Both the position numbers and the translations under genes were made by a program. This document shows, piece by piece, positions 38,749 through 56,930 of a stretch of DNA of 64,000 nucleotides. Position 1 is the stretch's first letter; each line of letters starts with the position of its first letter. The notes beneath the pieces are model-generated. The model ran no database searches. It was not told where the DNA came from and was given only the letters and a program-made list of their open reading frames with translations. This DNA comes from Actinomycetota bacterium (GTDB taxonomy: Bacteria > Actinomycetota > Actinomycetes > Actinomycetales > Dermatophilaceae): contig JAIUNK010000003.1 in assembly GCA_020161845.1 (NCBI GenBank), positions 1-64,000 of the forward strand, written 5' to 3'.

Positions 38749-39711
38749 ATGTCCCAGGTTCTGGTTGTCGCCGAGCAGGCCCCCGGTGGGGTCCGCAAGG
38801 CATGTTTGGAGCTGCTCACCATGGCCCGCGAGCTCGGTGAGCCGGCGGCCGTGCTCGTCGGCGACGCCCCCGCCGAGGCGGTGGCGCAGCTGACGGAGTA
38901 CGGCGCCGAGAAGGTCTACGTCGTCGGCGGCAACGAGCGCAGTGACTACCTGTCGGTGCCGGTCGCGCGCGCCGTGCAGGCGGTCGTCGGGCAGGCACAG
39001 CCGCTGGCCGTGCTGCTGGTCAGTGGCCCGGAGGGCAAGGATGTTGCCGCCCGCCTCGCCGTACAGCTGGAAAGCGGCCTGGTCACCGACGCGATCGCCA
39101 TCGAGAAGGACGGCGACTCGGTGGTCGCGACGCAGAGCGTCGTCAACGGTCAGTACCGCGCCAAGACCAAGGTGACCCGCGGCCCCGCGATCGTCACTGT
39201 GCGACCCAACTCGGTGAGCGCGACGGCCGCGGCCGGCGCCGGCGAGGTGGTCAATGTCGACGTCAGCTACGACGATGCGGCGCGCGGCACGGCGATCACG
39301 GGCCGCACACCGAAGGGTTCCACGGGTCGTCCGGACCTCGTCGACGCCGCGGTCGTGATCACTGGTGGCCGCGGGGTCGGCTCCGAGGAGGGCATGGCAC
39401 TGATCGGCCAGGTGGCCGACGCGCTCGGCGGGGCGGTCGGGGCGACCCGGGCCGTCACCGACCTCAAGTGGGCGCCGCACGACCTGCAGATCGGTCAGAC
39501 CGGCAAGACGGTCGCGCCGTCGCTCTACCTGGCCGCCGGAGTGTCTGGGTCCATCCAGCACCGGGCCGGCATGCAGTCCAGCAAGACGATCGTGGTCGTG
39601 AACAAGGACCCCAAGGCCCCGATCTTCCAGGTCGCCGACTTCGGTGTCGTCGGCGACCTGCACAAGGTGCTGCCCGTCCTGGTCGAGCAGGTCAAGGCCA
39701 CGCGCGGCTGA
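38749..39711 (+). CDS. etfA: Electron transfer flavoprotein alpha subunit
   Basis: A 320-residue ETF alpha subunit (FixB). The C-terminal FAD site is clear: GGRGVGSEEGMALIGQVADA, QIGQTGKTVAPSLYLAAGVS and GSIQHRAGMQSSKTIVVVNK. Start at 38749 (MSQVLVVAEQ) is favoured by CAGGAGA just upstream over the in-frame ATG at 38731. It lies 51 bases after etfB. A strong hairpin lies between it and etfD. Confidence 0.95.
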   Translation: MSQVLVVAEQAPGGVRKACLELLTMARELGEPAAVLVGDAPAEAVAQLTEYGAEKVYVVGGNERSDYLSVPVARAVQAVVGQAQPLAVLLVSGPEGKDVAARLAVQLESGLVTDAIAIEKDGDSVVATQSVVNGQYRAKTKVTRGPAIVTVRPNSVSATAAAGAGEVVNVDVSYDDAARGTAITGRTPKGSTGRPDLVDAAVVITGGRGVGSEEGMALIGQVADALGGAVGATRAVTDLKWAPHDLQIGQTGKTVAPSLYLAAGVSGSIQHRAGMQSSKTIVVVNKDPKAPIFQVADFGVVGDLHKVLPVLVEQVKATRG

Positions 39712-39739
39712 GATCTGGGGGTCGTCCCCGAACCGCTCC

Positions 39740-39771
39740 GGCCGGGCGGCGGTGTCTTCCGCCGCCCGGCC
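39740..39771 (+). terminator. Hairpin between etfA and etfD
   Basis: GGCCGGGCGGCGG (39740-39752) pairs perfectly with 39759-39771 across a six-base loop, 13 G-C pairs. No U-run. It may cap the etfBA message and lower expression of the membrane protein and synthase genes downstream. Confidence 0.7.
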
Positions 39772-39832
39772 CGCGGTCCCGTCCCGATGTTCCGCGAGCA
39801 CCGTCTGCGCAGCCGGTGGGAAGAAGTCGCAC

Positions 39833-42060
39833 ATGTTCGCCGTACGTGTCGTCCTTGGCCTCCTGATCGTCCTCGGGGGGCTGGTCATCGCCGGCCGCCG
39901 CCTCGCCTATCTGTACTCCGTCGGTCGGACCGCCCAGGCCGTCGAGCCGGGTCGTCCCCGGGACCTCAAGGAGGCGGCGTCGTCCTGGCTGGGCGAGGTC
40001 GTCGCCCAGCGCAAGCTGGTGCGCTGGACCGCGCCCGGGTGGGCGCACGCCTTCGTGTTCTGGGGCTTCTGCGTGCTGCTGCTGACGATCGTCGAGGCCT
40101 TCGGCGCGATCGTGAATCCGCTCTTCCAGATCCCGGTGATCGGCAACTGGCCGGCGCTGGGGTTCGTCGAGGACCTGATGGCGCTGGCGTGTCTCGGCGC
40201 CGTCATCGTGTTCGTCATCCTGCGCCGCCGGCAGGCCCCGCAGGCCCTGGGCCGCAGCTCCCGGTTCTACGGCAGCCACCTCGGCCCGGCCTGGATCACC
40301 CTGGCGGGGATCACCGGCGTCGTGCTGACCGTGCTGCTGACCCGGGCCGCCCAGATCAACGCCCAAGAGGTCAACAGCACCGACCGGCTGCCCTTCCTGC
40401 GCGGCGCCTTCGCCTCCCAGGCGCTGGCCGCGCCGATGGCCCCCCTGGGGGTCCACGCCAACGAGATCCTGGAGACCGTCTTCCTCCTGCTCGGTCTCCT
40501 CGTGCTGATGGTCTTCGTCGTCTTCGTGACCTACAGCAAGCACCTGCACATCATGGCCTCGCTGCCCAACGTGTGGCTGGCCCGCCGGCCGCGCGCACTC
40601 GGCAACCTCAAGGGTCTCTACATCGACGGCAAGCCGGTCGACCTGGAGTCGATGGACGAGCTCGACGAGGACGCCCCGCTGGGCGTCGGCAAGGTCGAGG
40701 ACTTCACCTGGAAGGGCATGCTCGACTTCGCGACCTGCACCGAGTGCGGCCGCTGCCAGAGCCAGTGCCCGGCCTGGAACACGGACAAGCCGCTCTCCCC
40801 GAAGCTGCTGATCATGGGCCTGCGCGACCACGCGTTGGCGAAGGCGCCCTACCTGCTGGCCGGCAAGGACGCGGAGGGCAACCGCACCGGCGTCCCCGAC
40901 GCGGCCGCTGCCGAGGCCGAGCGCCCCCTGGTCGGTCCCGAGGGCGATGAGACCGCCGTCGTCGACGGCCACGGCGTGCACGGCGAGGGCGTCATCCCCT
41001 ACGACATGCTCTGGTCCTGCACGACGTGCGGCGCCTGTGTGGAGCAGTGCCCGGTGGACATCGAGCATGTCGACCACATCGTCGACATGCGGCGCTACCA
41101 GATGCTGATGAACTCGGCCTTCCCGGAGGAGGCCGCGGGCATGCTCAACGGGCTGGAGCACGCGGGCGACCCGTGGGGCCGCGGCGCTCGGCTGCGGATG
41201 GACTGGGCGACCGAGCTGGACTTCGAGGTCCGCGTCTTCGGCGCCGAGGGCGAGGAGAAGATTCCGCAGGACGTCGACTACCTGTTCTGGGTCGGCTGCG
41301 CCGGCGCCCTCGACGACACCGCGATGCGGACCAGCCGGGCCGTCGCCACCCTGCTGCACGAGGCCGGGGTCAACTTCATGGTGCTCGGCGACGCGGAGGC
41401 GTGCACCGGCGACCCGGCCCGCCGGGTGGGGCACGAGTTCCTTTTCCAGATGATGGCCACCCAGAACGTCGAGACCCTCAACGAGGTCGGCGCCACCCGC
41501 ATCGTCGTCACCTGCGCGCACTGCTACAACACCCTGGCCAACGAATATCCGCAGTTCGGCGGGCACTACCAGGTCGTGCACCACGCCCAGTTGCTGCAGG
41601 ACCTGGTGGCGCAGGGCCGGCTCACCCCGGTGACACCGGTGGCGCAGACGGTGACCTACCACGACCCCTGCTACCTGGGTCGGCACAACCGCATCTTCAC
41701 CCCCCCACGCGAGGTGCTGGCCAAGGTGCCCGGCGTCCGGCTCGTGGAGATGCCCCGCAACAGCGAACGCTCGTTCTGCTGCGGCGCCGGCGGCGGCCGG
41801 ATGTGGATGGACGAGAACATCGGCAAGCGGATCAACCTGGAACGCACCGACGAGGCCCTGTCGGTCAACCCCGGCACCATCGCCGCGGCCTGCCCGTGGT
41901 GCATCACCATGCTCGACGACGGCCTCAAGCAACGCCGCCAAGAGGGCGTCATCGGCGACGACGTACAGGTCACCGACCTGGCCGAGCTGCTCCTGGCGAG
42001 CGTGCGCCCGGCCCCCACCGCACTACTGGATCACCCCACCACCGAGGAGAAGGACGAGTC

Positions 42061-42064
<4 letters not shown>
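39833..42064 (+). CDS. etfD: EtfD-type membrane Fe-S oxidoreductase
   Basis: A 743-residue protein linking ETF to the quinone pool. N-terminal part (about 1-260) has five or six membrane helices like a haem-b (NarI-type) domain. Next come two [4Fe-4S] motifs, CTECGRCQSQCP (around 302) and CTTCGACVEQCP (around 396). Then two cysteine-rich CCG-type domains, ending in SFCCGAGGGRMW (around 650), as in heterodisulfide reductase subunit B. This layout matches M. tuberculosis EtfD (Rv0338c) and the ETF:menaquinone oxidoreductases of syntrophs. Its stop overlaps the next ATG (ATGA), so it is coupled to the acyl-CoA dehydrogenase. Confidence 0.92.
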
Positions 42065-43761
<1,697 letters not shown>

Positions 43762-43858
43762 TCCGCGCCACACCGATCCGACCGGGCCCAGGCTCAGCCC
43801 GGCCCCGACCCGACGACCGACGCACCGCGCGCAGCGCGCCTTCGCAAGGAGACCACGG

Positions 43859-46800
43859 ATGAGTACTCACGGCGAACCGATTGCCGTCATCGGGACGGCG
43901 GCCATCATGCCGCAGGCCCCGAACGCGGATGTCTTCTGGAACAACATCCAGCAGGGCGTCTACGCCATCACCGAAACCCCGCCGGAGCGCTGGGATCCGG
44001 CGCTGTACTGGGACCCGGACCACAGCGCGCGCGACAAGACCTACAGCAAGATCGGCGGCTGGGTCCGCGAGTTCGACTGGAACCCGGTGGCCTGGAAGCT
44101 GCCGATCCCGCCGACCGTGGCCAAGCAGATGGACGAGGGGCAACGCTGGGCGATCAGCGCCTCCCGCGCTGCTCTCGTCGAGGCGGGCTGGCCGAACTGG
44201 AAGGTCGACGGCGACCGGGTGGCGGTGATCTTCGGCAACGCGATCGGCGGCGAGAAGCACTACGTCTCCAGCAACCGGGTGCGCCTGCCCGAGGTGGTCA
44301 AGCACCTGGAGAAGGTGCCGTCGTTGACGTCGCTGGACAGCGACACCCAGCGCCGGATCATCGAGGAGACCCGCGCGGCGTTCCTCGATTCGCAGCTGGA
44401 GATCACCGAGGACACCATGCCCGGTGAGCTGTCCAACGTCCTGGCCGGCCGGATCGCCAACCTGTTTAACTTCCACGGCCCCAACTACACGACCGACGCG
44501 GCGTGTGCGTCCGGGTTTGCGGCCCTCACCAGCGCGATCTCGGGTCTGCGGGCCCAGGACTATGACGTCGTCCTGACCGGCGGCATCGACCGCAACATGG
44601 GCATCGAAGGCTTCGTGAAGTTCTGCAAGATCGGGGCTCTGTCGGCCACCGGCACGCGCCCGTTCGACGCGGCCGCCGACGGCTTCGTCATGGGCGAGGG
44701 CGCCGCGCTGTTCGTGCTCAAGCGACTCGCCGACGCCGAGCGGGACGGCGACCCGATCCAGGCCGTGATCCTGGCGGTCGGCGGCTCCTCGGACGGCAGG
44801 GGCAAGGGCATCACGGCCCCCAACCCGGCCGGCCAGAAGTTCGCGGTGGAGCGCGGGTGGGAATGGGCGGGCCTGGACCCGGCCACCTGCACGGCGTTGG
44901 AGGCGCACGGCACTTCGACCCGCGTTGGTGACGCCGCCGAGCTGGCCTGCCTCACCGAGGTGTTCGGCGCCTCGGGGGCTCGGCAGGGCTCCATCGCCCT
45001 CGGCTCGGTCAAGTCCAACATCGGCCACCTCAAGGCGGCGGCCGGGGCGGCCGGGCTGTTCAAGATGGTCAAGCAGCTGCAGCACAAGGTCCTGCCGCCG
45101 AGCCTGAACTTCCAGACCCCCAACGAGAATGTCGACTGGGGCTCGATCCCGTTCGCCGTGAACACCCAGCTGCGCGCCTGGAACTCGGCCGACTGCCCGG
45201 ACGGGGTCCGGCGCGGCGGCGTCAGCGCCTTCGGGTTCGGCGGCACGAACTTCCACGTGGTCGCCGAGGAATACATCCCGGGCCGGCACAAGCCGCAGGC
45301 CACGATTCACGCCGCGGCGGCCGTCCCGACCGGCACCACGGCAGCGGTCACCGCTCAGCCTCGCAAGACCCCGCTGCGGGGGGCGCTCGTGGTCGGCGGC
45401 GCGGACGACGCCGCCGTGGTCGCCCAGCTGCAGGCGGTCCTGGCCGAGGCCAAGGCGGGGCGCGCCCCCGCCCCGGCGGCCCCCGACCCGGCCCTGGCCG
45501 GCGCGGCCGTTCGCGCCGCCATCGACTACGGCGACGCCGCCGAGCTGGCCGGCAAGATCGAGAAGCTGCTCAAGGCGTTCGCCAGCGGCAACCCGGCCGC
45601 ATTCCGGCTGATGCGCCAGCAGGGCATGTTCGTCGGCCGCGGCCCGGCGCCCAAGGTGGCCTTCCTCTACACCGGCCAGGGCAGCCAGTACGTCAACATG
45701 CTGGCCGCGCTCCGCCAGACCGAGACCATCGTCCGCGACCGGTTCGCGCGCGCCGACCTCGTGATGGCGCCGCTGCTGGGCAAGCCCCTGTCCGAGTTCA
45801 TCTTCACCGACCCGGCCGACGAGGCCCGGGTGAAGGAACTGACCAAGGGTCTGATGCAGACCGAGATCACCCAGCCGGCCGTGCTCGCCACGGACCTGGC
45901 CCTGACCGAGATGCTCGCCGCCTACGGCGTACGGCCGGACATGGTGATGGGGCACAGCCTCGGGGAGTACGGCGCTCTGGTCGCCTCCGGCGCCCTCGGC
46001 TTCGACCAGGCCCTGGAGGCCGTCAGCGCCCGCGGTCGCGAGATGACCAAGGTGTCGATGGGCGACAACGGTGCGATGGCCGCCGTGTTCGGCCCGATGC
46101 AGGACATCCAGGCCACGGTGGACGCGGCCGACGGCTATGTCGTCGTCGCGAACATCAACTCCAACAGCCAGGCCGTCGTGGGTGGCGCCACGGATGCCGT
46201 CGAGCGGATCGTCGAGGTCTTCAAGGCCAAGGGCATCAACGCGACCCGGATCCCGGTCAGCCACGCCTTCCACACCTCGATCGTGGCTCCGGCCTCGGCG
46301 CCGTTCGTCGAGGTGCTGCGGCGGCTCGACATGAAGCCCCCGCAGTTGCCGATCGTCGCCAACGTGACCGGCGACTTCTACCCGGCCGACGCGACGACCG
46401 AGACGATGCTGGAGTTCGCGGGCAAGCAGATCGCCTCGCCGGTCCAGTTCGTCAAGGGCCTGCAGACGCTGTACGCCGCGGGCGCGCGCGTCTTCGTCGA
46501 GGTCGGGCCGAAGAAGGCCCTGCACGGCTTCGTCGAGGACGTGCTGGGCGGCATGGACGACGTCGTGGCGCTCTACACCAACCACCCCAAGCAGCCCGAC
46601 GATGTGGCGCTGAACCAGGCGCTGTGCGGCATGTACGCCGTCGGCGTCGGGCTGGCGGCGGAGGGGAAGATCCCGGCCGCCGCGGCTCCGGTTGCGCCGG
46701 CTCCGGTTGCTGCGCAGGTTCCTGCCGCTGCGCAGGTTCCTGCCGCTGCGCCCGCCCCGGCCGGCGGCACGGTCGCCGTGCGGCCCCGCGGCGGCGCGGT

Positions 46801-49800
46801 GCGCACGGCCGCCGACATCCACATCACCCAGGAGACCATCGCGCGGCTCGGGGAGCTGTTCGCCGGTGTCCTCGCGGAGGGACTGGACGTCTTCCGCTCC
46901 GACCCGGGCGTGGCCGCCCTCGCACCCGGCACCGCCCTGTCCGCGGGGGGCGGCGGGCGCGGCCGGGCCGACCAGCCGCTGGTCATCACCGGCGCCTCGC
47001 TCGGCCTGCCCGGCAACCAGCCGGCGTTCGACGACGAGAACGTCGGGCGGCTGCTGGCCGGCCAGCAGTTCATCACGGCGGTCCCGGCCAAGTACCGGGA
47101 GATGATGGCCGACATGCGGATCACCCGCCTCGTCAAGGACGAGTCGGGCTCGGGCAGCTTCCAGCTCGTGGACCGCGTCGAGGACGTCATCAAGCTCGCC
47201 GGCCAGATGGCGCCGTACGACATCATCGAGCAGTTCGGCGTCGACAAGGCGCGCGACGAGGCGCTCGACGTGGTGACCCGGCTCGGCATCGGCGTCGGCT
47301 TCGACGCGCTGCGCGACGCCGGCATCCCGCTGGTGATGCGCTACAAGACCACCACGCTGGGCACCCAGCTGCCGGACCGCTGGCTGTTGCCGGAGGCCCT
47401 GCGCGACGACACGGGCATCGTGTTCGCCTCGGCCTTCCCCGGCTACAACCGGTTCGCCGAGGCGATGGAGGGCTACTTCACCTTCCGCGGCCGGCGCGAG
47501 AACCTGTTGGCCCTGGAGGGGCTGCGCACCCAGGTCAGCGACCCGGACACGCAGGCCAAGGTGGACGCCCTGATCGCCGAGACCCGGTCGAAGCTGGAGA
47601 GCGAGCACTACGAGTTCGACCGGCGCTTCCTGTTCCGGGCCCTCGCGATGGGGCACAGCCAGTTCGCCGAGCTGATCGGCTGCCGGGGTCCGAACACGAC
47701 CGTGAACGCGGCGTGCGCCTCCACCACCCAGGCGATGTCCATCGCCGAGGACTGGATCCGGGCCGGCCGCTGCCGGCGAGTGATCGTGCTGTCCGCGGAC
47801 GACACCACCCACGAGAACTTCTTCCCGTGGATCACCTCCGGGTTCATCGCGACCGGAGCGGCGGCGACCGACGAGCGGGTCGAGGACGCGGCGACGCCGT
47901 TCGACGCCCGCCGGCACGGCATGATCATCGGCGCCGGTGCGGCGGCGGTCGTCGTGGAGAGCGCCGAGGCGGCGGCCGAACGCGGCATCCAGCCCATCGC
48001 CGAGATTCTCGGCACGGTCACCGCCAACAGCGCCTTCCACGGCACGCGGCTCGACGTCGACCACATCAGCGGCGTGATGGAGGCGCTGGTGCGTGAGGTC
48101 GAGGCGCGCGGCTACGACCGGCACGAGATCGCGCCACGCACCGTCTTCGTCAGCCACGAGACCTACACGCCGGCTCGCGGCGGGTCCGCGGCGGCCGAGA
48201 TCAAGGCGTTGCGGGACGCGTTCGGCGCGGCGGCCGACCAGATCGTCATCACGAACACCAAGGGCTTCACCGGGCACGCCATGGGCGCCGGCATCGAAGA
48301 CGTGCTCGCGATCAAGGCGCTGGAGACGGGCATCGTGCCGCCGGTGCCGAACTACAAGGTGCCGGATCCCACGCTCGGCAACCTCAACCTGTCGCGCGGC
48401 GGCAGCTATCCGGTGGAGTTCGCCCTGCGGCTAGCGGCCGGCTTCGGCAGCCAGATCGCGTTGACGATGATCCGCTGGACACCGATGCCGGACAAGGCTC
48501 ACCGGGCGCCCAACCAGCTCGGCTACGCCTATCGGGTGATCGACCGCCAAGCCTGGCAGGCCTGGCTCGACACGCTGGCCGGCAGCCCCGGCAGCGCGCT
48601 CGAGGTGGACCACCGTCGGCTGCGGATCGCGGACCGGGGAGCCCCGGCGACACCGCACACGTGGACGACGCGGGTGCCGGTGCCGTACGTCGCAGAACTC
48701 AGCGGTACGCCGCAGCCGGTGGCGACCTCGGCCCCGCAGGGGGTCGCGGGTGCTCCCGCCCCGGTCGCGGCCCCGGCGCCCGTCCCTGCTCCGGCTCCGG
48801 CGCCGGCCGTGCCCAGTCCGGTGCCGGCACCCCCGGCTCCGGTGCCCGCACCGGTTGCCGCGGCGCCGACCCCGGCGGCCGCGACCGACGAGATCCTCGC
48901 CAAGGTCACCGACCTGGTCTCGGAGATGACCGGCTACCCGCCGGACCTGCTCGATCCCGAGCTGGATCTGGAAGCCGACCTGGGTGTGGACACGGTCAAG
49001 CAGGCCGAGGTGTTCGCCGCGGTCCGGGCCCATTGGGACCTGGAGCGGGACGAGGATCTGCGGTTGCGGGACTTCCCGACGCTGAACCACGTCGCGGGCT
49101 GGGTCCGCGGCAAGCTCGGCGTCGCGGCGCCCAGCGCGCCAGCTCCGGCCGGCTTGGTGGCTGCCGACATCAGCGCGGCCCCCGCGCCGGCGGTCGCGGG
49201 CGACGAGATCCTCGCCGTGGTCACCCGGCTGGTGGCCGAGATGACCGGCTACCCGCCGGAGCTGCTGGATCCGGAGCTGGACCTGGAGGCCGACCTGGGC
49301 GTCGACACGGTCAAGCAGGCCGAGGTGTTCGCCGCCGTTCGCAGCCACTGGGACCTGGAGCGGGACGAGAACCTGCGGCTGCGGGACTTCCCGACGCTGA
49401 ACCACGTCGCGGGCTGGGTCCGCGGCAAGCTCGGCACCTCGGCGGCCCCGGTCGCGACGGCGGCCGCGGTGGTCAGCAGCCCGGAGGCGTCCTCGCCGAT
49501 CTACGCGCCCGTTCCCGGGTCCGCGGCGCCGGCACCGGCCTCGCCGGCTGGCGACGAGATCCTCGCGGTCGTCACCAATGTGGTGGCGGAGATGACCGGC
49601 TATCCGGTCGAGCTGCTGGATCCGGAGCTGGATCTGGAGGCCGACCTGGGCGTGGACACGGTCAAGCAGGCCGAGGTGTTCGCCGCGGTCCGGGGTCACT
49701 GGGACCTGGAGCGGGACGAGGATCTGCGGTTGCGGGACTTCCCGACGCTGAACCACGTCGCGGGCTGGGTCCGCGGCAAGCTCGGGGTCGCCCAGCCGAC

Positions 49801-52800
49801 GGCAACGGCGGCCACGGCGGCCGGTGCTGCGGCGACGGCGCCGGTGGTCACGGCGATGTCGGCGGACGTCTCGGTCCCCGGGGTGCCGGCTGCGGCCGGG
49901 CCGGTCGCGGGTGCGCCCAGTGGCGGCGCACCGGCGGACGAGATCCTGACGGTCGTCACCAACGTGGTGGCGGAGATGACGGGTTATCCGGTCGAGCTGC
50001 TGGATCCGGAGCTGGATCTGGAGGCCGACCTGGGCGTGGACACGGTCAAGCAGGCCGAGGTGTTCGCCGCGGTACGCAGCCACTGGAACCTGGAGCGCGA
50101 CGAGAACCTGCAGCTGCGGGACTTCCCGACGCTGAACCACGTCGCGGGCTGGGTCCGCAGCAAGCTCGGCGTCGAGGCCCCGACGGCGACCGCTTCGGCG
50201 GCCGCGCCCGCCATGGCGCCGGCCGCGCCGTCGGCCGACCCCGCCGCCGGCGGGGCCGGGTCGGACGAGACCCTGACGGTCGTCACCAATGTGGTGGCGG
50301 AGATGACGGGTTATCCGGTCGAGCTGCTGGATCCTGAGCTGGATCTGGAGGCCGACCTGGGCGTGGACACGGTCAAGCAGGCCGAGGTGTTCGCCGCGGT
50401 CCGCAGCCATTGGAACCTGGAGCGCGACGAGAACCTGCAGCTGCGGGACTTCCCGACGCTGAACCACGTCGCGGGCTGGGTCCGCGGCAAGCTCGGCGTC
50501 GAGGCCCCGGCGGCGACCGCTTCGGCGGCCCCGTCGGCCGAGTTCGGCGCACCGACTGCGGCTCTGGGCGCCGGGGCGCCCTCCGGCGCGGCGGCCGCCG
50601 TGGCCAAGCTCGTCAGCGGCGACCTGGACGCCGTCGACGCGCTGCCGCGCCGGATCCCCGTGCCGTCGCTGCGGCCGGACCTGAGCCGCTGCGCACCCAC
50701 CGGCGTCCAGCTGGAGGGGGCCCGCATCGTCGTCATGCTCGACGAGGGCGGCGTGGGAACGGCGCTGGTGGGCCGACTGGAGAAGGCGGGGGCCACGGCC
50801 CTGACGCTGGAGCCCGGGGTGACCACCGAGGACCTGGAGGCGGCGGTCTCCGGGTGGATCGGCGACGGCGGCGTCACCGGCGTCTACTGGCTGGCGGGTC
50901 TCGACCGTGAGGACGAGGTCGCCGACTACGACGCCGAAGGCTGGCGGGAGGCGACCCGGCGTCGGGTCAAGAGCCTCTACCGCACGATGCGGCTGCTCTC
51001 CGAAGCGCGCGACAACGCGGGCGAGGGCGCGATCGGCGCGTTCCTGGTGTCGGCCACCCACCTGGGCGGCTACCACGGGTACGACGCGGGCGGCGCGACC
51101 GGCGTCCTCGGTGGCGGCATCACCGGGTTCACCAAGTCCTACAAGAAGGAGAACCCGCAGTCGCTGGTCAAGGCGGTGGACCTGGCCGCCACCCGGCGTA
51201 CGGCGGGCGTCGCGGACCTGCTCGTCGCGGAGACGCTCAGCGACCCGGGCTGTGTCGAGATCGGCGTGGTCGACGGTCGTCGCTATGGCGTGGCGTTCGT
51301 CGAGCGGCCGTTCGGCGAGCGGGACGGCGAGACCAGCCTCGGCTCGGGTGGCATGCCACTCGGTCCGGAGACGGTGTTCGTCGTGACCGGGGCGGCCGGC
51401 TCGATCGTCTCGGCGATCACGGCCGACCTGGCCAAGGCGAGCAAGGGAGTCTTCCACCTGCTCGACCTGACGCCCAAGCCGGATGCGGCCGACCCCGACA
51501 TCGCGGCCTTCCGCGCCGGCTCGCCGGAGCTGAAGAAGACCTTGGCGGCCCGGATCACGCAGCGCGGCGACAAGGCCACGCCGGTGCTGATCGAGCGCGA
51601 GCTCACCGGCATCGAACGGCGCAGCGCGGCTCTGGACGCCATCCAGGCCGTCGAGGCGGCGGGTGGCACCGTCCACTACACCAGCGTCGACCTCACCAAC
51701 GACGAGGCCGTCGCCGAGGCGGTCGGATCGATCCGCGAGATCAGCGGTCGCGTGGACGTGCTCCTGCACGCCGCCGGCATCGAGATCAGCCGCCCGCTGC
51801 CGAAGAAGGAGCCGCGGGAATACGACCTGGTGTTCGACGTCAAGACCGGCGGATGGCACGCCCTGTGGCGGGCCACGGCCGACCTTGAGGTCGGCGCGGT
51901 GGTCGTGTTCTCCTCGGTCGCCGGCCGGTTCGGCAACCAGGGTCAGACCGACTACTCGGCGGCGAACGACCTGATGTGCAAGGCGGTCAGCCACCTGCGG
52001 CGGGTTCGTCCGCAGACCCGGGGCCTCTCGCTGGACTGGACGGCCTGGGGCGGCATCGGGATGGCCACTCGAGGCTCGATCCCGACCATCATGGCCGCGG
52101 CCGGCGTACAGATGCTCCCGCCGGAGGCGGGCGTGGCGTGGATCCGGCGCGAACTGACCGACTCCGCGTTCAGCGGCGAGGTCGTCGTGGCGGGAACGCT
52201 GGGGATGATGGCCGCGGAGTACGACGAGGCCGGTGGCCTCGCCGAGGCGGCCCAGCCCGCGCCGAACTCGGCGGGCCCGCTGGTGGGCGACCTGCGCACC
52301 AGCGTGCACACCGGGTGGACCACTCGGGTCGAGCTGTGCCCGAAGACCCAGAAGTTCCTCGACGATCACCGCATCGACGGCATCGCCGTGCTGCCGGGCG
52401 TGATGGGCATGGAGGCCTTCGCCGAGGTGGCTGCGCTGGCCGCCCCGGAGGGCTACCGGGTCTCCAGCGTGGAGGACGTCGACTTCTCGGCACCGTTCAA
52501 GTTCTTCCGGGACGAGCCGCGGACGCTGACGATCAACGCCGTCGTCGAGCCCGACCCGGCCGGCGGGGACGACCTGCTGGCCCGGTGCAGCCTGACGGGG
52601 GAGCGCAAGCTTCCCGGCCAGGACGCGCCCGTGGTGACCACCCACTTCCGTGGGACGGTGCGGTTGACCACGGCCAAGCCGCCGCGCAGCCAGAAGTACG
52701 GCGAGAAGCTGGACCCGGCGGGGAACACCCTCGGCGCGGACCAGGTGTACACGTTCTACTTCCACGGCCCGGCCTATCAGGTCGTGGAGGAGGCGTGGCG

Positions 52801-53176
52801 GACCAACGAGGGTGCGACCGCGCGGTTGACGGCGCAGCTGCCGGAGGACCGGACCCCCGCCGACGCGCCGCTGGTGACGGCTCCGCGACTGGTGGAGCTG
52901 TGCTTCCAGACGGCCGGGCTCTGGGAGGCCGGTCGGGACGGCCGCATGGCGCTGCCATGGCGGGTCGGTCGGGCCGAGGTTGTCGCCGACCCGGAGACGG
53001 CGGCGACCCCGCTGGTCGCGCACTCGGTGCGGGGCGCGGACGGCACGGTGTCCGCCCGGGTCGTCGATGCCAAGGGCAAGGTGGTGGTCCGGCTGGACGG
53101 GTACACCACCATCGCGATGCCGACCAGCCTGCCGCCTGAGGTCGAGCCGGCCCTGCGGGCGACGTACGGCGACTGA
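43859..53176 (+). CDS. PfaA-like megasynthase KS-AT-KS-5xACP-KR-DH
   Basis: A 3105-residue iterative-type synthase. Order by residue: KS1 5-470 (Cys216 in DAACASG, His350 in EAHGTST, His390 in NIGHLKAAAG); AT about 598-896 (Ser700 in GHSLGEY; SHAFHTS with His805, the malonyl-type form); KS2 about 1040-1545 (Cys1286, His1433, His1473); Ala/Pro linker; five ACP-like domains 1677-2215; KR 2270-2760 (TGAAGS, Tyr2699); DH about 2805-3095 (DHRIDGIAVLPG, His2837; the partner acid looks like Glu3013 in ELCFQ). There is no ER or thioesterase. KS1, AT and the tandem ACPs resemble PfaA of polyunsaturated fatty-acid synthases, but PfaA has one KS and Ser in its ACPs; here all five have Thr (LGVDTVKQAE). 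AAGGAGA precedes the ATG at 43859. The product is unknown; a partly reduced or unsaturated long acyl chain is the best inference. Confidence 0.92.
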   Translation: MSTHGEPIAVIGTAAIMPQAPNADVFWNNIQQGVYAITETPPERWDPALYWDPDHSARDKTYSKIGGWVREFDWNPVAWKLPIPPTVAKQMDEGQRWAISASRAALVEAGWPNWKVDGDRVAVIFGNAIGGEKHYVSSNRVRLPEVVKHLEKVPSLTSLDSDTQRRIIEETRAAFLDSQLEITEDTMPGELSNVLAGRIANLFNFHGPNYTTDAACASGFAALTSAISGLRAQDYDVVLTGGIDRNMGIEGFVKFCKIGALSATGTRPFDAAADGFVMGEGAALFVLKRLADAERDGDPIQAVILAVGGSSDGRGKGITAPNPAGQKFAVERGWEWAGLDPATCTALEAHGTSTRVGDAAELACLTEVFGASGARQGSIALGSVKSNIGHLKAAAGAAGLFKMVKQLQHKVLPPSLNFQTPNENVDWGSIPFAVNTQLRAWNSADCPDGVRRGGVSAFGFGGTNFHVVAEEYIPGRHKPQATIHAAAAVPTGTTAAVTAQPRKTPLRGALVVGGADDAAVVAQLQAVLAEAKAGRAPAPAAPDPALAGAAVRAAIDYGDAAELAGKIEKLLKAFASGNPAAFRLMRQQGMFVGRGPAPKVAFLYTGQGSQYVNMLAALRQTETIVRDRFARADLVMAPLLGKPLSEFIFTDPADEARVKELTKGLMQTEITQPAVLATDLALTEMLAAYGVRPDMVMGHSLGEYGALVASGALGFDQALEAVSARGREMTKVSMGDNGAMAAVFGPMQDIQATVDAADGYVVVANINSNSQAVVGGATDAVERIVEVFKAKGINATRIPVSHAFHTSIVAPASAPFVEVLRRLDMKPPQLPIVANVTGDFYPADATTETMLEFAGKQIASPVQFVKGLQTLYAAGARVFVEVGPKKALHGFVEDVLGGMDDVVALYTNHPKQPDDVALNQALCGMYAVGVGLAAEGKIPAAAAPVAPAPVAAQVPAAAQVPAAAPAPAGGTVAVRPRGGAVRTAADIHITQETIARLGELFAGVLAEGLDVFRSDPGVAALAPGTALSAGGGGRGRADQPLVITGASLGLPGNQPAFDDENVGRLLAGQQFITAVPAKYREMMADMRITRLVKDESGSGSFQLVDRVEDVIKLAGQMAPYDIIEQFGVDKARDEALDVVTRLGIGVGFDALRDAGIPLVMRYKTTTLGTQLPDRWLLPEALRDDTGIVFASAFPGYNRFAEAMEGYFTFRGRRENLLALEGLRTQVSDPDTQAKVDALIAETRSKLESEHYEFDRRFLFRALAMGHSQFAELIGCRGPNTTVNAACASTTQAMSIAEDWIRAGRCRRVIVLSADDTTHENFFPWITSGFIATGAAATDERVEDAATPFDARRHGMIIGAGAAAVVVESAEAAAERGIQPIAEILGTVTANSAFHGTRLDVDHISGVMEALVREVEARGYDRHEIAPRTVFVSHETYTPARGGSAAAEIKALRDAFGAAADQIVITNTKGFTGHAMGAGIEDVLAIKALETGIVPPVPNYKVPDPTLGNLNLSRGGSYPVEFALRLAAGFGSQIALTMIRWTPMPDKAHRAPNQLGYAYRVIDRQAWQAWLDTLAGSPGSALEVDHRRLRIADRGAPATPHTWTTRVPVPYVAELSGTPQPVATSAPQGVAGAPAPVAAPAPVPAPAPAPAVPSPVPAPPAPVPAPVAAAPTPAAATDEILAKVTDLVSEMTGYPPDLLDPELDLEADLGVDTVKQAEVFAAVRAHWDLERDEDLRLRDFPTLNHVAGWVRGKLGVAAPSAPAPAGLVAADISAAPAPAVAGDEILAVVTRLVAEMTGYPPELLDPELDLEADLGVDTVKQAEVFAAVRSHWDLERDENLRLRDFPTLNHVAGWVRGKLGTSAAPVATAAAVVSSPEASSPIYAPVPGSAAPAPASPAGDEILAVVTNVVAEMTGYPVELLDPELDLEADLGVDTVKQAEVFAAVRGHWDLERDEDLRLRDFPTLNHVAGWVRGKLGVAQPTATAATAAGAAATAPVVTAMSADVSVPGVPAAAGPVAGAPSGGAPADEILTVVTNVVAEMTGYPVELLDPELDLEADLGVDTVKQAEVFAAVRSHWNLERDENLQLRDFPTLNHVAGWVRSKLGVEAPTATASAAAPAMAPAAPSADPAAGGAGSDETLTVVTNVVAEMTGYPVELLDPELDLEADLGVDTVKQAEVFAAVRSHWNLERDENLQLRDFPTLNHVAGWVRGKLGVEAPAATASAAPSAEFGAPTAALGAGAPSGAAAAVAKLVSGDLDAVDALPRRIPVPSLRPDLSRCAPTGVQLEGARIVVMLDEGGVGTALVGRLEKAGATALTLEPGVTTEDLEAAVSGWIGDGGVTGVYWLAGLDREDEVADYDAEGWREATRRRVKSLYRTMRLLSEARDNAGEGAIGAFLVSATHLGGYHGYDAGGATGVLGGGITGFTKSYKKENPQSLVKAVDLAATRRTAGVADLLVAETLSDPGCVEIGVVDGRRYGVAFVERPFGERDGETSLGSGGMPLGPETVFVVTGAAGSIVSAITADLAKASKGVFHLLDLTPKPDAADPDIAAFRAGSPELKKTLAARITQRGDKATPVLIERELTGIERRSAALDAIQAVEAAGGTVHYTSVDLTNDEAVAEAVGSIREISGRVDVLLHAAGIEISRPLPKKEPREYDLVFDVKTGGWHALWRATADLEVGAVVVFSSVAGRFGNQGQTDYSAANDLMCKAVSHLRRVRPQTRGLSLDWTAWGGIGMATRGSIPTIMAAAGVQMLPPEAGVAWIRRELTDSAFSGEVVVAGTLGMMAAEYDEAGGLAEAAQPAPNSAGPLVGDLRTSVHTGWTTRVELCPKTQKFLDDHRIDGIAVLPGVMGMEAFAEVAALAAPEGYRVSSVEDVDFSAPFKFFRDEPRTLTINAVVEPDPAGGDDLLARCSLTGERKLPGQDAPVVTTHFRGTVRLTTAKPPRSQKYGEKLDPAGNTLGADQVYTFYFHGPAYQVVEEAWRTNEGATARLTAQLPEDRTPADAPLVTAPRLVELCFQTAGLWEAGRDGRMALPWRVGRAEVVADPETAATPLVAHSVRGADGTVSARVVDAKGKVVVRLDGYTTIAMPTSLPPEVEPALRATYGD
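48886..50500 (+). repeat. Five tandem ACP-coding repeats
   Basis: Five units of about 80 codons separated by Ala/Pro/Thr-rich linkers, spaced 105, 117, 128 and 109 residues apart. The Thr at the expected attachment site is at residues 1712, 1817, 1934, 2062 and 2171. Over the core CTGGATCTGGAGGCCGACCT and its flanks the DNA is nearly identical between copies, especially 3-5; copies 4 and 5 share NLERDENLQL, while 1 and 3 share DLERDEDLRL. Confidence 0.93.
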
Positions 53177-53251: not shown

Positions 53252-54904
53252 TCAGCCGGTGGGCAGGATCGAGGCCAGGATCACGTCGCTGAGGTTGGTC
53301 TCGGTGTTGACGACGCTGGCCGTGCCGCCGGCGGCCGCGGCGATCGCGGTGAGCGCCGCCATATCGGACTGCGGGCCGAGCCCGGCCAGCGCGACCGTCA
53401 CGGGCTTGTCCGGCCCTGGTCGTTGGGCCTTGATGCGCGCCACCAGCTGGTCCAGGGTGATCGTTTGCGGGTCGTATTCGTTGCGGCCGTCGGTCAGAAC
53501 GACGATGACCTGGTTGGACTCCGGATTGGCCGCGGCGACCGCCTGGGCGTAGGCGTCCGAGATGGTGTCGTAGAGGCCCGTTCCGCCCTTGACGGTGGGG
53601 ATGATCTGGTCGAACGCGTTGGCGAACTGCAGCGCCGCCGGCAGCAGGCTGCCGTCCGGCCCCGACAGCGGCGTCATCGGCACGACCACCCGATAGTCCT
53701 TGGCGCCGAACTCGGTGTTGCTCGCCATCTGCCACAGCGAACCCTTGGTGTTCGGGGGGACGAAGTTGAGCGCCGTCTGCACGGCCTTGGCCGTGAGCTC
53801 GATCCGGGACCCGCCGTATCCCGAGGGGTCGAGCATCGACCCGGAGGTGTCCACCACCATCAGCATGTTCACGGGCCGACTCAGTTGGGTCATCAGTCCG
53901 GTGACGGTCTGGACGGTCTCCGGGAGCGGTGAGTCCAGGGAGATCTTGACGTCCTGCGGCAGACCCGGCACGTTGGCGGTGCCCCGGTTGTCGACGCGGA
54001 AGCCGGCCGCCCGCAGGGCGTCCTGGGACTGCGGCGTGCGCATCTCGGCGGCCAGGGCGTCGACCGCCTTCTGCACCTTCGGGTCCATGTCGGCGGGGCG
54101 GACGGCGACATATTTCAGTGCGGCCAGCCCCTCGACCGCGCCAAGCGAGGTCAGCGTGGCATCGGAGTGCTGGGCGTTGAAGGCGGCCATGCGCTGCTCG
54201 GTCGCCGGGAAGACGACCGGGCCCTGCGCATTGCCGGGGACGGCGCGCTCGTAGAGCTGGTCGTCGGTGTCCGTGCTTCGGGCCAGCGGGACGAAGGCCT
54301 TGGCCGCCGCGAGCTGCGCCATCCGATCCTGACCGCTGTTGTGCCACGCGGTGAGCAGCAGCATGAGGGTGGTGGAGGACTCGCTCGGGTTGGCGATCTT
54401 GAGCGCGGGGAGGGACCCGGCCATCTGCTTGGCCATCGGCTGCTGCCCGGTGGGGACCTTGCCCTGCGCCACGATGGCGGCCGGCACGGCGAGCACGACG
54501 GGGGTGGACGCGATGGCCTCGGGGTAGACGGACACACTGCCCGGCTTCTGACGCAGCACCTGTGACGGCCAGACCGGGGAGTCGGCGATCCACAGGTCCG
54601 GTTCGGCGCCCTTGGCCATGCCCCGCGCGGCGACCGCGGCGGCCGCCTCGGCCTTGACCTGGTAGCGCGCGCACTGCGCGCCCTCGATCGCTGTGGCCCG
54701 TGCCGCGACGACGTCCTTGATGTCCGCCGCCGCGCTCACCCGCACGGTCGTGGGGTCGCTGCAGCCGGCCCCGCCGCCCGGTCCGCTCGGGTCGCCCGAC
54801 TGCGGCGAGCCGCCGCTGCAGGCGGTGGCCCCGGCGAGCAGGCCGGCAACCGTGCCGGCCAGCCAGGATCTGCGGTGCACAAGGGGGGCTCGGTGGGGGA
54901 GCAT
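53252..54904 (-). CDS. Lipoprotein: binding-protein domain plus VWA
   Basis: A 550-residue exported lipoprotein. The N-terminus has Arg residues, a hydrophobic run and a lipobox (LAGATAC, Cys about residue 29). Residues about 50-320 resemble a ModA/SBP_bac_11-type solute-binding fold (VRVSAAADIKDVVAA, DLWIADSPVW). Residues about 340-550 are a von Willebrand A domain with an intact MIDAS (DTSGSM, TGLYDT, TDGRNE). Such fusions are seen in actinobacteria but have no settled function; surface adhesion or metal/solute sensing are possible. GGAAGG precedes the ATG. It is 54 bases downstream of the second VWA gene and converges on the synthase. Confidence 0.85.
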   Translation of the reverse strand: MLPHRAPLVHRRSWLAGTVAGLLAGATACSGGSPQSGDPSGPGGGAGCSDPTTVRVSAAADIKDVVAARATAIEGAQCARYQVKAEAAAAVAARGMAKGAEPDLWIADSPVWPSQVLRQKPGSVSVYPEAIASTPVVLAVPAAIVAQGKVPTGQQPMAKQMAGSLPALKIANPSESSTTLMLLLTAWHNSGQDRMAQLAAAKAFVPLARSTDTDDQLYERAVPGNAQGPVVFPATEQRMAAFNAQHSDATLTSLGAVEGLAALKYVAVRPADMDPKVQKAVDALAAEMRTPQSQDALRAAGFRVDNRGTANVPGLPQDVKISLDSPLPETVQTVTGLMTQLSRPVNMLMVVDTSGSMLDPSGYGGSRIELTAKAVQTALNFVPPNTKGSLWQMASNTEFGAKDYRVVVPMTPLSGPDGSLLPAALQFANAFDQIIPTVKGGTGLYDTISDAYAQAVAAANPESNQVIVVLTDGRNEYDPQTITLDQLVARIKAQRPGPDKPVTVALAGLGPQSDMAALTAIAAAAGGTASVVNTETNLSDVILASILPTG

Positions 54905-54958
54905 GGTCAGGCCTTCCGACGTCGACGGCGGGTCAGGGCAGTAGGTCCGGGGAGGGTG

Positions 54959-55858
54959 TCAGGGCAGGGTCAGGATCGCGTCGTGCAGCTGGCTGGGCGT
55001 GCCGGCGGCGACGGCCCGGCCGCCCACCGCGTCCACCACCTGGTTCAGCAGCGTCATGTCTGCCCCGGGGGTGATGCCCACGAAACGCGGTGTCGCGGAG
55101 CGGGCGCGCTTGGCGGTCTCCGCCTTGGCGAACGTCACGAAGGTCGCCAGATCCGCTCCTCCGGAACGGCCGCCGTCGGTGATCGCCATGAGGATCGGTG
55201 CGGGATCCGAACCCGGCTGCCCGGCCAGCACGTGCTGGTAGCTCAGGGTCAGGGCATCGAAGACGGGCCGGTTGGTGCCCGCGGTCGTGGTCAGGCCCTG
55301 GACGGCCTTGACCAGCTGCTCGCGACGGTCGCCGTTGACGGGTTCGGCGGGAACGAGCACGGCGACGCCCGCGGGGGAGTACGTCGTGAGCCCGACGGTC
55401 ACGCCGTCCGGCACCTGCCGGAACAGCTCGGTCAGGCTGTCCTTCACCGTCGGCAGGTGGGCGGCCATGCTGGCGGAGGAGTCCACGACCACGACGAGAC
55501 GACCCGCGGCACGCAGCGCGGTGGTGGGGTCGGGGATCGGGGTGCTGGGGGCCGGGGCCGCCGTCGAGGTGGCCGCACTCGTCGTGGCGCTTGAGGCCGA
55601 CATAGATGCCGTGGCCGACGTGGTGGCCGAGGCTGTCGACGGCTCGGTCGCCGAGGCCGAGCCGCCCGCGGGGGTGGCCACGGAGGTGGCTCCGGAGGCG
55701 GTCGATTCGGCGGAGGCGACATCGTCGCCGCGGCCCGGTCGCACCCACAGGTAGAGATTGAGCGCGATGAGGGCGATCACGAGAAGGACCTCCGCGGCCA
55801 CCACGAGGACGCGTTTGCGCGGCCAGTTCTCGGACGGCTGCGGGGGCGAAGAGCTCAC
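54959..55858 (-). CDS. Membrane-anchored VWA domain protein
   Basis: A 299-residue protein: short Pro/Ser N-terminus, one membrane helix (about 17-39, VLVVAAEVLLVIALIALNLY), a Ser/Thr/Ala-rich stalk of about 65 residues, then a von Willebrand A domain with MIDAS DSSASM and a TDGGRSGG loop. The domain should sit outside the cell. GTG start at 55858 lies six bases after TACTAT on this strand with no Shine-Dalgarno. It is the first gene of a two-gene unit with the binding/VWA lipoprotein. Function unknown. Confidence 0.82.
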   Translation of the reverse strand: MSSSPPQPSENWPRKRVLVVAAEVLLVIALIALNLYLWVRPGRGDDVASAESTASGATSVATPAGGSASATEPSTASATTSATASMSASSATTSAATSTAAPAPSTPIPDPTTALRAAGRLVVVVDSSASMAAHLPTVKDSLTELFRQVPDGVTVGLTTYSPAGVAVLVPAEPVNGDRREQLVKAVQGLTTTAGTNRPVFDALTLSYQHVLAGQPGSDPAPILMAITDGGRSGGADLATFVTFAKAETAKRARSATPRFVGITPGADMTLLNQVVDAVGGRAVAAGTPSQLHDAILTLP

Positions 55859-56141: not shown

Positions 56142-56930
56142 TCAGGGCGAGCGCAGCGGGGCGGCGATCCAGGAGTGCACCGGCGTGGCCGTCGCCAGGT
56201 CCAGGCTGCCCGGCAGCGGCCGCGGCGGATCGCACGGATAGCGCGTCACGACGGTCAGCAGGAACCGGCCGTCTCGGCGCCACCAGCCGGGATAGGCGCC
56301 GGCCCGGTGATCGATGGTGAGCCGCGACCAGCCGTCGGAGCGATGGCCGCGCAGCACCGAGACGTCGACCGTGCGGGTGTCCGCACGCAGCCCCACCCGT
56401 TGCACCTTCAGTGCGGCCTCCTTGGCCGACCAGAGGAGATTGGCGCCGGCGGCGTAGGCGTCCGGGCTGCCGACCAGCTGACCGGTGAGCCAGCGCTGCT
56501 CCCGGCTGGTCAGGAAGTCTCGGACGAAGTCCTGGCTGCGCTCCTCGACGATCTCGACGTCGACCCCCAGGCCACCGACCGATCTGGACGAACCCTCCGG
56601 ACCGACCAGGCAGACGGCATGCCCGGCCCGGTCCGTGAGGGAGACCTCCAGGCCGCAAGGCTCGTCGTCGAGCACGACGTACGGCGCCCCGCCGGGCGCG
56701 GTCAGCACTCCGATCCGGCCCAGGTCCTGCGGCGTGCTGATGTCGAGGCCGAGCGCGGCCGCCACGGCGTACTTGCCGGCGACCCGCCGCAGGCAGTATT
56801 CGGTGCGTCGCTTGGTAAACCGATAGCGGGACAGCCGCCGTTGTTCGCTGCGGTGCAGCCACGCCGTCCCGGCGGGGATGCGATCCTCGGCGCAGGCGTA
56901 CCAGTGCAGCAGCGGGGCGGCGGTGGTCAT
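56142..56930 (-). CDS. Sfp-type 4'-phosphopantetheinyl transferase
   Basis: A 262-residue Sfp/Gsp-type transferase. The CoA/Mg site is GLGVDVEIVEER (around 124-135) and the second motif is LLWSAKEAALKVQ (around 166-178). The N-terminal half has the usual RYRFTKRRTEYCLRR substrate region. It moves phosphopantetheine from CoA to carrier proteins and is the natural candidate to serve the synthase 3 kb away, although that synthase has Thr at its acceptor sites. Strong GAGGAG before the ATG; it lies nine bases after the ABC permease gene, so it is the third gene of that operon. The last 30 residues are a Pro-rich extension. Confidence 0.9.
   Translation of the reverse strand: MTTAAPLLHWYACAEDRIPAGTAWLHRSEQRRLSRYRFTKRRTEYCLRRVAGKYAVAAALGLDISTPQDLGRIGVLTAPGGAPYVVLDDEPCGLEVSLTDRAGHAVCLVGPEGSSRSVGGLGVDVEIVEERSQDFVRDFLTSREQRWLTGQLVGSPDAYAAGANLLWSAKEAALKVQRVGLRADTRTVDVSVLRGHRSDGWSRLTIDHRAGAYPGWWRRDGRFLLTVVTRYPCDPPRPLPGSLDLATATPVHSWIAAPLRSP

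Follow-up and report, generated by a model that had tools for sequence, protein, structure and literature searches.

Type R secondary lipid synthases, as defined in the main text of Shulse & Allen 2011 (PMC3098273), combine ketosynthase (KS), MAT, chain-length factor (CLF), three to six acyl carrier proteins (ACPs) and ketoreductase (KR) in one protein, i.e., KS-MAT-CLF-ACP(3-6)-KR, with a transferase gene located downstream, and are uncharacterised. The members presented there belong to Acidobacteria, Elusimicrobia, and Chloroflexi, and in Koribacter an acetyl-CoA carboxylase gene is located between the synthase and the transferase; the words serine and threonine have 0 occurrences in that main text. 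We analysed a stretch of 64,000 nucleotides from a Dermatophilaceae genome (Actinomycetota; GenBank assembly GCA_020161845.1, contig JAIUNK010000003.1, positions 1 to 64,000), here called the window, which encodes a synthase of this kind with threonine (Thr) at the carrier attachment site of all five ACPs. Threonine is found in every readable member of the family; the family also shows intact active-site motifs, a linked transferase gene from a distinctive Sfp-type subfamily and, in the model, a canonical ACP fold. To our knowledge, the attachment serine (Ser) is treated as universal, and what we describe is a real, conserved exception to that rule within a known kind of enzyme.

The synthase is a single open reading frame (ORF) with an uncertain start, as an ATG is also present internally at 43859. 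Two ketosynthases, acyltransferase (AT), PP-binding, KR, and dehydratase (DH) domains were found in it by Pfam, and all five ACPs are placed between KS2 and KR in the same polypeptide. The features are as follows (window coordinates, strand in brackets):

43727-53176 (+): type I iterative lipid/polyketide synthase ORF, 3149 aa, by Pfam and NCBIfam; domain order KS-AT-KS2-5xACP-KR-DH
43874-45304 (+): KS1; Cys-His-Lys-His motifs all kept
45662-46546 (+): acyltransferase domain; GHSLGE and His motifs kept
47024-48760 (+): KS2, at the position named chain-length factor in Type R; Cys, His, Lys, and His kept
48887-49120 (+): ACP1; Thr codon ACG at 48992-48994
49202-49435 (+): ACP2; Thr codon ACG at 49307-49309
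49553-49786 (+): ACP3; Thr codon ACG at 49658-49660
49937-50170 (+): ACP4; Thr codon ACG at 50042-50044
50264-50497 (+): ACP5; Thr codon ACG at 50369-50371
51380-52051 (+): ketoreductase domain; Ser and Tyr-x-x-x-Asn motifs kept
52307-53116 (+): dehydratase hot-dog domain; HxxxGxxxxP kept

Each of the five ACPs reads LGVDTVKQAE, with the codons GAC-ACG-GTC (D-T-V) where carriers have Asp-Ser. The phmmer alignment pairs this threonine with the phosphopantetheine serine of DIDSL in Mycobacterium tuberculosis AcpM (1klp, E 0.0011), and in the AlphaFold2 model of ACP1 (mean pLDDT 91.5) it is Thr36 of the domain and the first residue of helix II; the best structural matches of the model in Foldseek are apo- and holo-ACPs. 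There is no serine within ten residues of the threonine in any of the five repeats, and the nearest ones, in SEMTGYP of repeat 1 and in RSHW of repeats 2, 4, and 5, are not common to all repeats. The reading of the initial annotation, i.e., threonine encoded by ACG in place of serine in all five carriers with no serine nearby, is thus borne out by the codons at the five sites, the AcpM alignment, and the inspected flanks. The whole synthase scores 70.7 bits with PF00550, over the cut-off of 20.8, so that the window ACPs pass the family threshold. In its model, ACP1 has the helices of an ACP, and the site is where helix II starts; the attachment serine is absent. The position of the site is correct and the residue is truly threonine. 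Repeats 2-5 are 85-92% identical to repeat 1, and because such near-copies share almost the same motif codons, the five repeats count at the sequence level as about one observation and the argument from within the gene is weak.

Relatives were sought mainly with KS2 as the query, since it carries no information on the ACP residue. Matches were obtained in 6/394 genomes of the class (the window's own genome counted), in 7/200 genomes of family f89 (two counted before), in 1/35 genomes of family f90 (counted before), and in two of the four genomes of one genus (both counted before); the single match among the 27 genomes of the class of genome G181 was G181 itself, first met with the ACP query. 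The scan of genome contigs, which gave the loci L016 (contig G694:C8), L017 (G181), and L018, yielded three close relatives, at 58-72% identity, and a further three at 28-31%; in these weak ones no such ACP was found. The Nonomuraea gerenzanensis locus (L022) was retrieved with the ACP query; its 11.85-Mb record, surely a chromosome, is labelled 'plasmid I' among plasmids. Viral contigs searched with a DNA pattern, a KS2 profile, and an ACP profile contained no relative, and phages gave no match. None of 299 Pseudomonadota genomes contained G-(V/I/M)-D-x-(V/I/M)-KQAE as an exact motif, whether x was Ser or Thr, serine types with KRxE being invisible to this pattern.

Altogether 17 gene copies were found, and the site is readable in 12 copies from 11 genomes. 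All 22 readable ACPs in these copies have threonine (ACG in 12, ACC in 10) and none has serine, which answers the question raised by the initial annotation whether homologues mostly have serine. The codons ACG and ACC vary only synonymously, though serine is one base change away. In the remaining five copies (G577, G552, G330, G460:C39, and G773:C349) the contig stops before the site. Contig breaks in or just ahead of the ACP region were frequent (L031, L033, L037, L058, and L059), as expected from near-identical repeats that assemblers cannot cross. A single ACP, always with threonine, was found in six relatives (L022, L032, L036, L055, L056, and L057), and one ACP is seen at the contig end in L034; because single-ACP synthases also have threonine, the residue is not peculiar to tandem repeats. 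All family members that we reached are Actinomycetota and include members of two classes of the phylum (G000, the window's own genome, and G181), and the identity of KS2 to the window decreases to 59-73% while threonine and the active-site motifs are conserved. Four synthases outside the family have serine in 9/9 ACPs (three in L039, one in L040, three in Azospirillum L101, and two in L102). In the KS1 tree, a branch supported at 99/99 sets the threonine group with its 12 rows apart; three of these rows (L031, L033, and L037) have the threonine label from family membership alone, their ACPs being unreadable, L015 is omitted for its broken frame, the serine rows are labelled by locus, and L101 and L102_10671 are flagged as long branches.

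The residues which we take to be catalytic in the synthase domains are intact. The motifs of KS1 (Cys/His/Lys/His), AT (Ser/His), KR (Ser/Tyr), and DH (HxxxGxxxxP) are present in 7/7 aligned full-length proteins, and in an eighth, partial protein (L057) the DH motif deviates and reads HRIDS. KS2 (47024-48760), the so-called chain-length factor, has all four residues, and since its Cys, His, Lys, and His are invariant across 11 aligned sequences, it could function as a second ketosynthase. The best NCBIfam match of the synthase is PfaA (TIGR02813), with 1023.9 bits just over the cut-off of 1010.1. The initial annotation had argued from five of five repeats for conserved function over decay; the count itself is a weak argument with repeats that are near-copies, and the conclusion stands on the 22/22 threonines across 12 copies, the intact motifs, and the transferase linkage described below. 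It is the intact motifs with the conserved threonine that speak for conserved function and not decay.

The Sfp-type transferase about 3 kb away, to which the initial annotation had drawn attention, was located as follows:

56142-56930 (-): Sfp-type phosphopantetheinyl transferase, 262 aa; PF01648 48.6 bits, cut-off 25; about 3 kb beyond the synthase stop

The protein contains GxDxE and WSAKE...K, has a double-lobed fold in its model, and reads SLTD in place of SxxH. Its Asp, Glu, Glu, and Lys, presumably catalytic, are invariant among seven aligned transferases, and in Foldseek the model matches Sfp/PptT/AASDHPPT-type enzymes, including the Sfp-CoA-PCP complex (4mrt). A transferase gene of this subfamily is found next to the synthase or in its vicinity in seven of the eight loci with a visible 3' flank (the window, L015, L018, L022, L032/L062, L055, and L056). 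With the window transferase as the query, 4/148 genomes of the class matched at E<=1e-6, with strong matches in three (G000, G330, and G302); the synthase is present in G000 and G330, and in G330 the transferase is beside the carboxylase gene on a separate contig. The His of SxxH is replaced by Asp in 8/9 members of the subfamily and retained in L015; it is present in 10/10 comparison transferases readable by motif search among 30 loci, and the Azospirillum transferase has it as well. An alignment with AcpS supports equating the Asp with the SxxH His. We assume that this His contacts the CoA phosphate, and the search of the open literature for His90 of Sfp found no match.

Other genes recur around the synthase, the first of them directly upstream in the window:

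42100-43761 (+): acyl-CoA dehydrogenase-like protein, directly upstream of the synthase; the longest ORF in frame begins at 41026

An acyl-CoA dehydrogenase gene is upstream of or beside the synthase in 12/13 family loci compared. A large acetyl-CoA-carboxylase-like protein separates the synthase and the transferase in five of seven loci (L015, L022, L032, L055, and L056), and in Nonomuraea (L022:17873-23335, 1821 aa) biotin carboxylase, biotin-lipoyl, and carboxyltransferase parts were assigned to it by Pfam. This protein adjoins the synthase in six loci (those five and L057) and the transferase in L068; the window, L018, and L036 showed no match to it. Between synthase and transferase, the window has two ORFs (53252-55858, -), one for a solute-binding/VWA protein and the other VWA-like, and upstream of the dehydrogenase an Fe-S/CCG-domain oxidoreductase-like ORF (39644-42064); none of the three had a match in the other 15 loci compared. 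Elsewhere, the window genome encodes an AcpM-like carrier with DIDSL (G000:C19), an AcpS, and an NRPS-like AMP-binding/PP-binding/thioesterase protein with the carrier motif GGDSI (G000:C32).

A synthase preserved in such an intact state needs a covalent carrier. We consider it probable, as far as sequences can tell, that the window encodes a Type R-like secondary-lipid synthase whose threonine ACPs are loaded with phosphopantetheine by the cluster's own Sfp-type transferase. This transferase would attach 4'-phosphopantetheine to the threonine at the start of helix II, AT would load malonyl onto the phosphopantetheine arm, KS1 and KS2 would extend the chain, and KR and DH would process it. The modification of the threonine, the role of the transferase in it, and the product, which would be a long fatty or polyene chain, are what we infer from the conserved locus. 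Because no enoyl reductase (ER) domain was found by Pfam in the synthase protein, the chain may end up polyene-like, provided that neither the adjacent dehydrogenase nor any other enzyme modifies it. There is, in our estimate, an even chance that a clade-wide carrier/transferase pair has shifted from serine to threonine with a matching change of the SxxH His to Asp, giving a loading channel which ordinary serine-type transferases may not serve.

Several observations weigh against loading of the threonine by the neighbouring transferase. PF00550 barely sees these ACPs, one window domain reaching 22.1 bits against the cut-off of 20.8, and the single ACP of Nonomuraea is unlisted at E<=1e-5. On the 16.8-kb contig of L036 (G460) there is no transferase, carboxylase, or dehydrogenase match, and G302, whose transferase gene lies at the end of a contig, is not one of the genomes in which the synthase was found. 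With Asp in place of His, the enzyme might handle CoA differently or less well, and the L015 transferase retains His while the L015 ACPs have threonine, so that the two changes are not strictly coupled. In addition, the passages on the Escherichia coli ACP mutant S36T describe it as unmodifiable by 4'-phosphopantetheine and non-functional, i.e., as a dead control (PMC3340395), as inactive together with S36C in another in vivo test (PMC9456370), and as unable to bind IscS (PMC13343975). These results concern the transferases of E. coli itself.

The same mutant, treated as unmodifiable in that account (PMC3340395), also favours the alternative that the ACPs are never loaded and act as docking or scaffold domains, with the chain held on a separate serine-type ACP, e.g., the AcpM-like carrier, or on free CoA. 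The genome does contain such a normal DIDSL carrier, and a natural serine-less ACP working without the arm exists in Plasmodium, whose mitochondrial ACP has Phe at the site according to the relevant part of PMC8547962. However, a mere scaffold would need no invariant hydroxyl, and threonine is found in 22/22 domains; the other non-serine ACPs dealt with there have Phe, Cys, or Gly and not threonine (PMC8547962). With the transferase gene staying with the synthase in 7/8 loci and the ACPs covalently set between KS2 and KR, we regard unloaded ACPs as unlikely. It is more doubtful still that the threonine carriers are loaded by AcpS or another transferase and that the neighbouring enzyme serves other carriers, for instance the NRPS-like protein. 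The genome offers both the AcpS and this GGDSI carrier, but the linkage of the transferase to the synthase in seven loci and the narrow distribution of its subfamily point the other way.

Direct acylation of the threonine as a malonyl or acyl oxyester, or its modification with another group, without the phosphopantetheine arm, seems to us very improbable; it has in its favour the invariant hydroxyl and nothing else, the gene comes with a transferase that has the expected catalytic residues, and the active sites of KS and KR would scarcely be within range of a short oxyester. Finally, a degenerate synthase with threonine as a relic, to which the reading-frame breaks in the assemblies of two relatives (G181/L015 and G689/L057) and the deviating DH motif of L057 might point, is rejected as scarcely credible in view of intact motifs and threonine conserved in two classes (G000 and G181) at a KS2 identity of 59-73%, with only synonymous variation of the threonine codon.

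Loading of the threonine ACPs by the cluster's transferase, if true, would be a natural exception to the textbook rule of the attachment serine. In the open-access papers searched, from which subscription papers are mostly absent, we found no mention of the motif LGVDTVKQAE or DTVKQAE, of phosphopantetheine borne by threonine, or of a serine-to-threonine exchange named along with ACP and phosphopantetheine. From annotation such ACPs would be taken as inactive, and a natural threonine carrier would correct both this and the use of serine-to-threonine exchanges as dead controls. The transferase/carrier pair would possibly be orthogonal to Sfp and AcpS, which could be of use for labelling and pathway engineering, and it would reveal how a transferase can use a secondary alcohol as acceptor. 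It would also open a direct biochemical way into a class of lipid synthases that is uncharacterised.

Compared with known systems, the threonine occupies the same position as in E. coli AcpP S36T, but that protein is a laboratory mutant in the relevant passages of PMC3340395, whereas here threonine is natural and invariant. The mitochondrial ACP of Plasmodium is likewise a natural ACP without the serine; it differs in having Phe, in working without the arm, and in the loss of mitochondrial fatty-acid synthesis, as described in the part of PMC8547962 devoted to it, whereas the synthase motifs are intact here. Toxoplasma ACP, treated in the same part, has Cys or Gly in place of serine, with mitochondrial fatty-acid synthesis lost as well (PMC8547962). 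The synthase resembles PfaA of polyunsaturated fatty acid (PUFA) synthases (TIGR02813) in its domain content with tandem ACPs, the NCBIfam cut-off being just passed, but D-S-(I/L) is absent from its tandem ACPs, which have threonine instead; the PfaA-like proteins of L039 (three ACPs) and L040 (one) have serine and stand outside the threonine group in the KS tree. The conserved serine is looked for in a 2026 survey of PUFA-synthase hybrids and reported as present in the case treated there (PMC13291983). Type R synthases, to which we liken the window on the basis of their published description in the main text of PMC3098273, differ in that the members found here add a DH domain, keep the Cys of KS2, and in six relatives show one ACP only. 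Nevertheless, the window protein has the order KS-MAT-CLF-ACP(3-6)-KR with a transferase gene nearby, encoded on the other strand at a distance of about 3 kb, and in L015, L022, L032, L055, and L056 a carboxylase-like protein is located between synthase and transferase here too.

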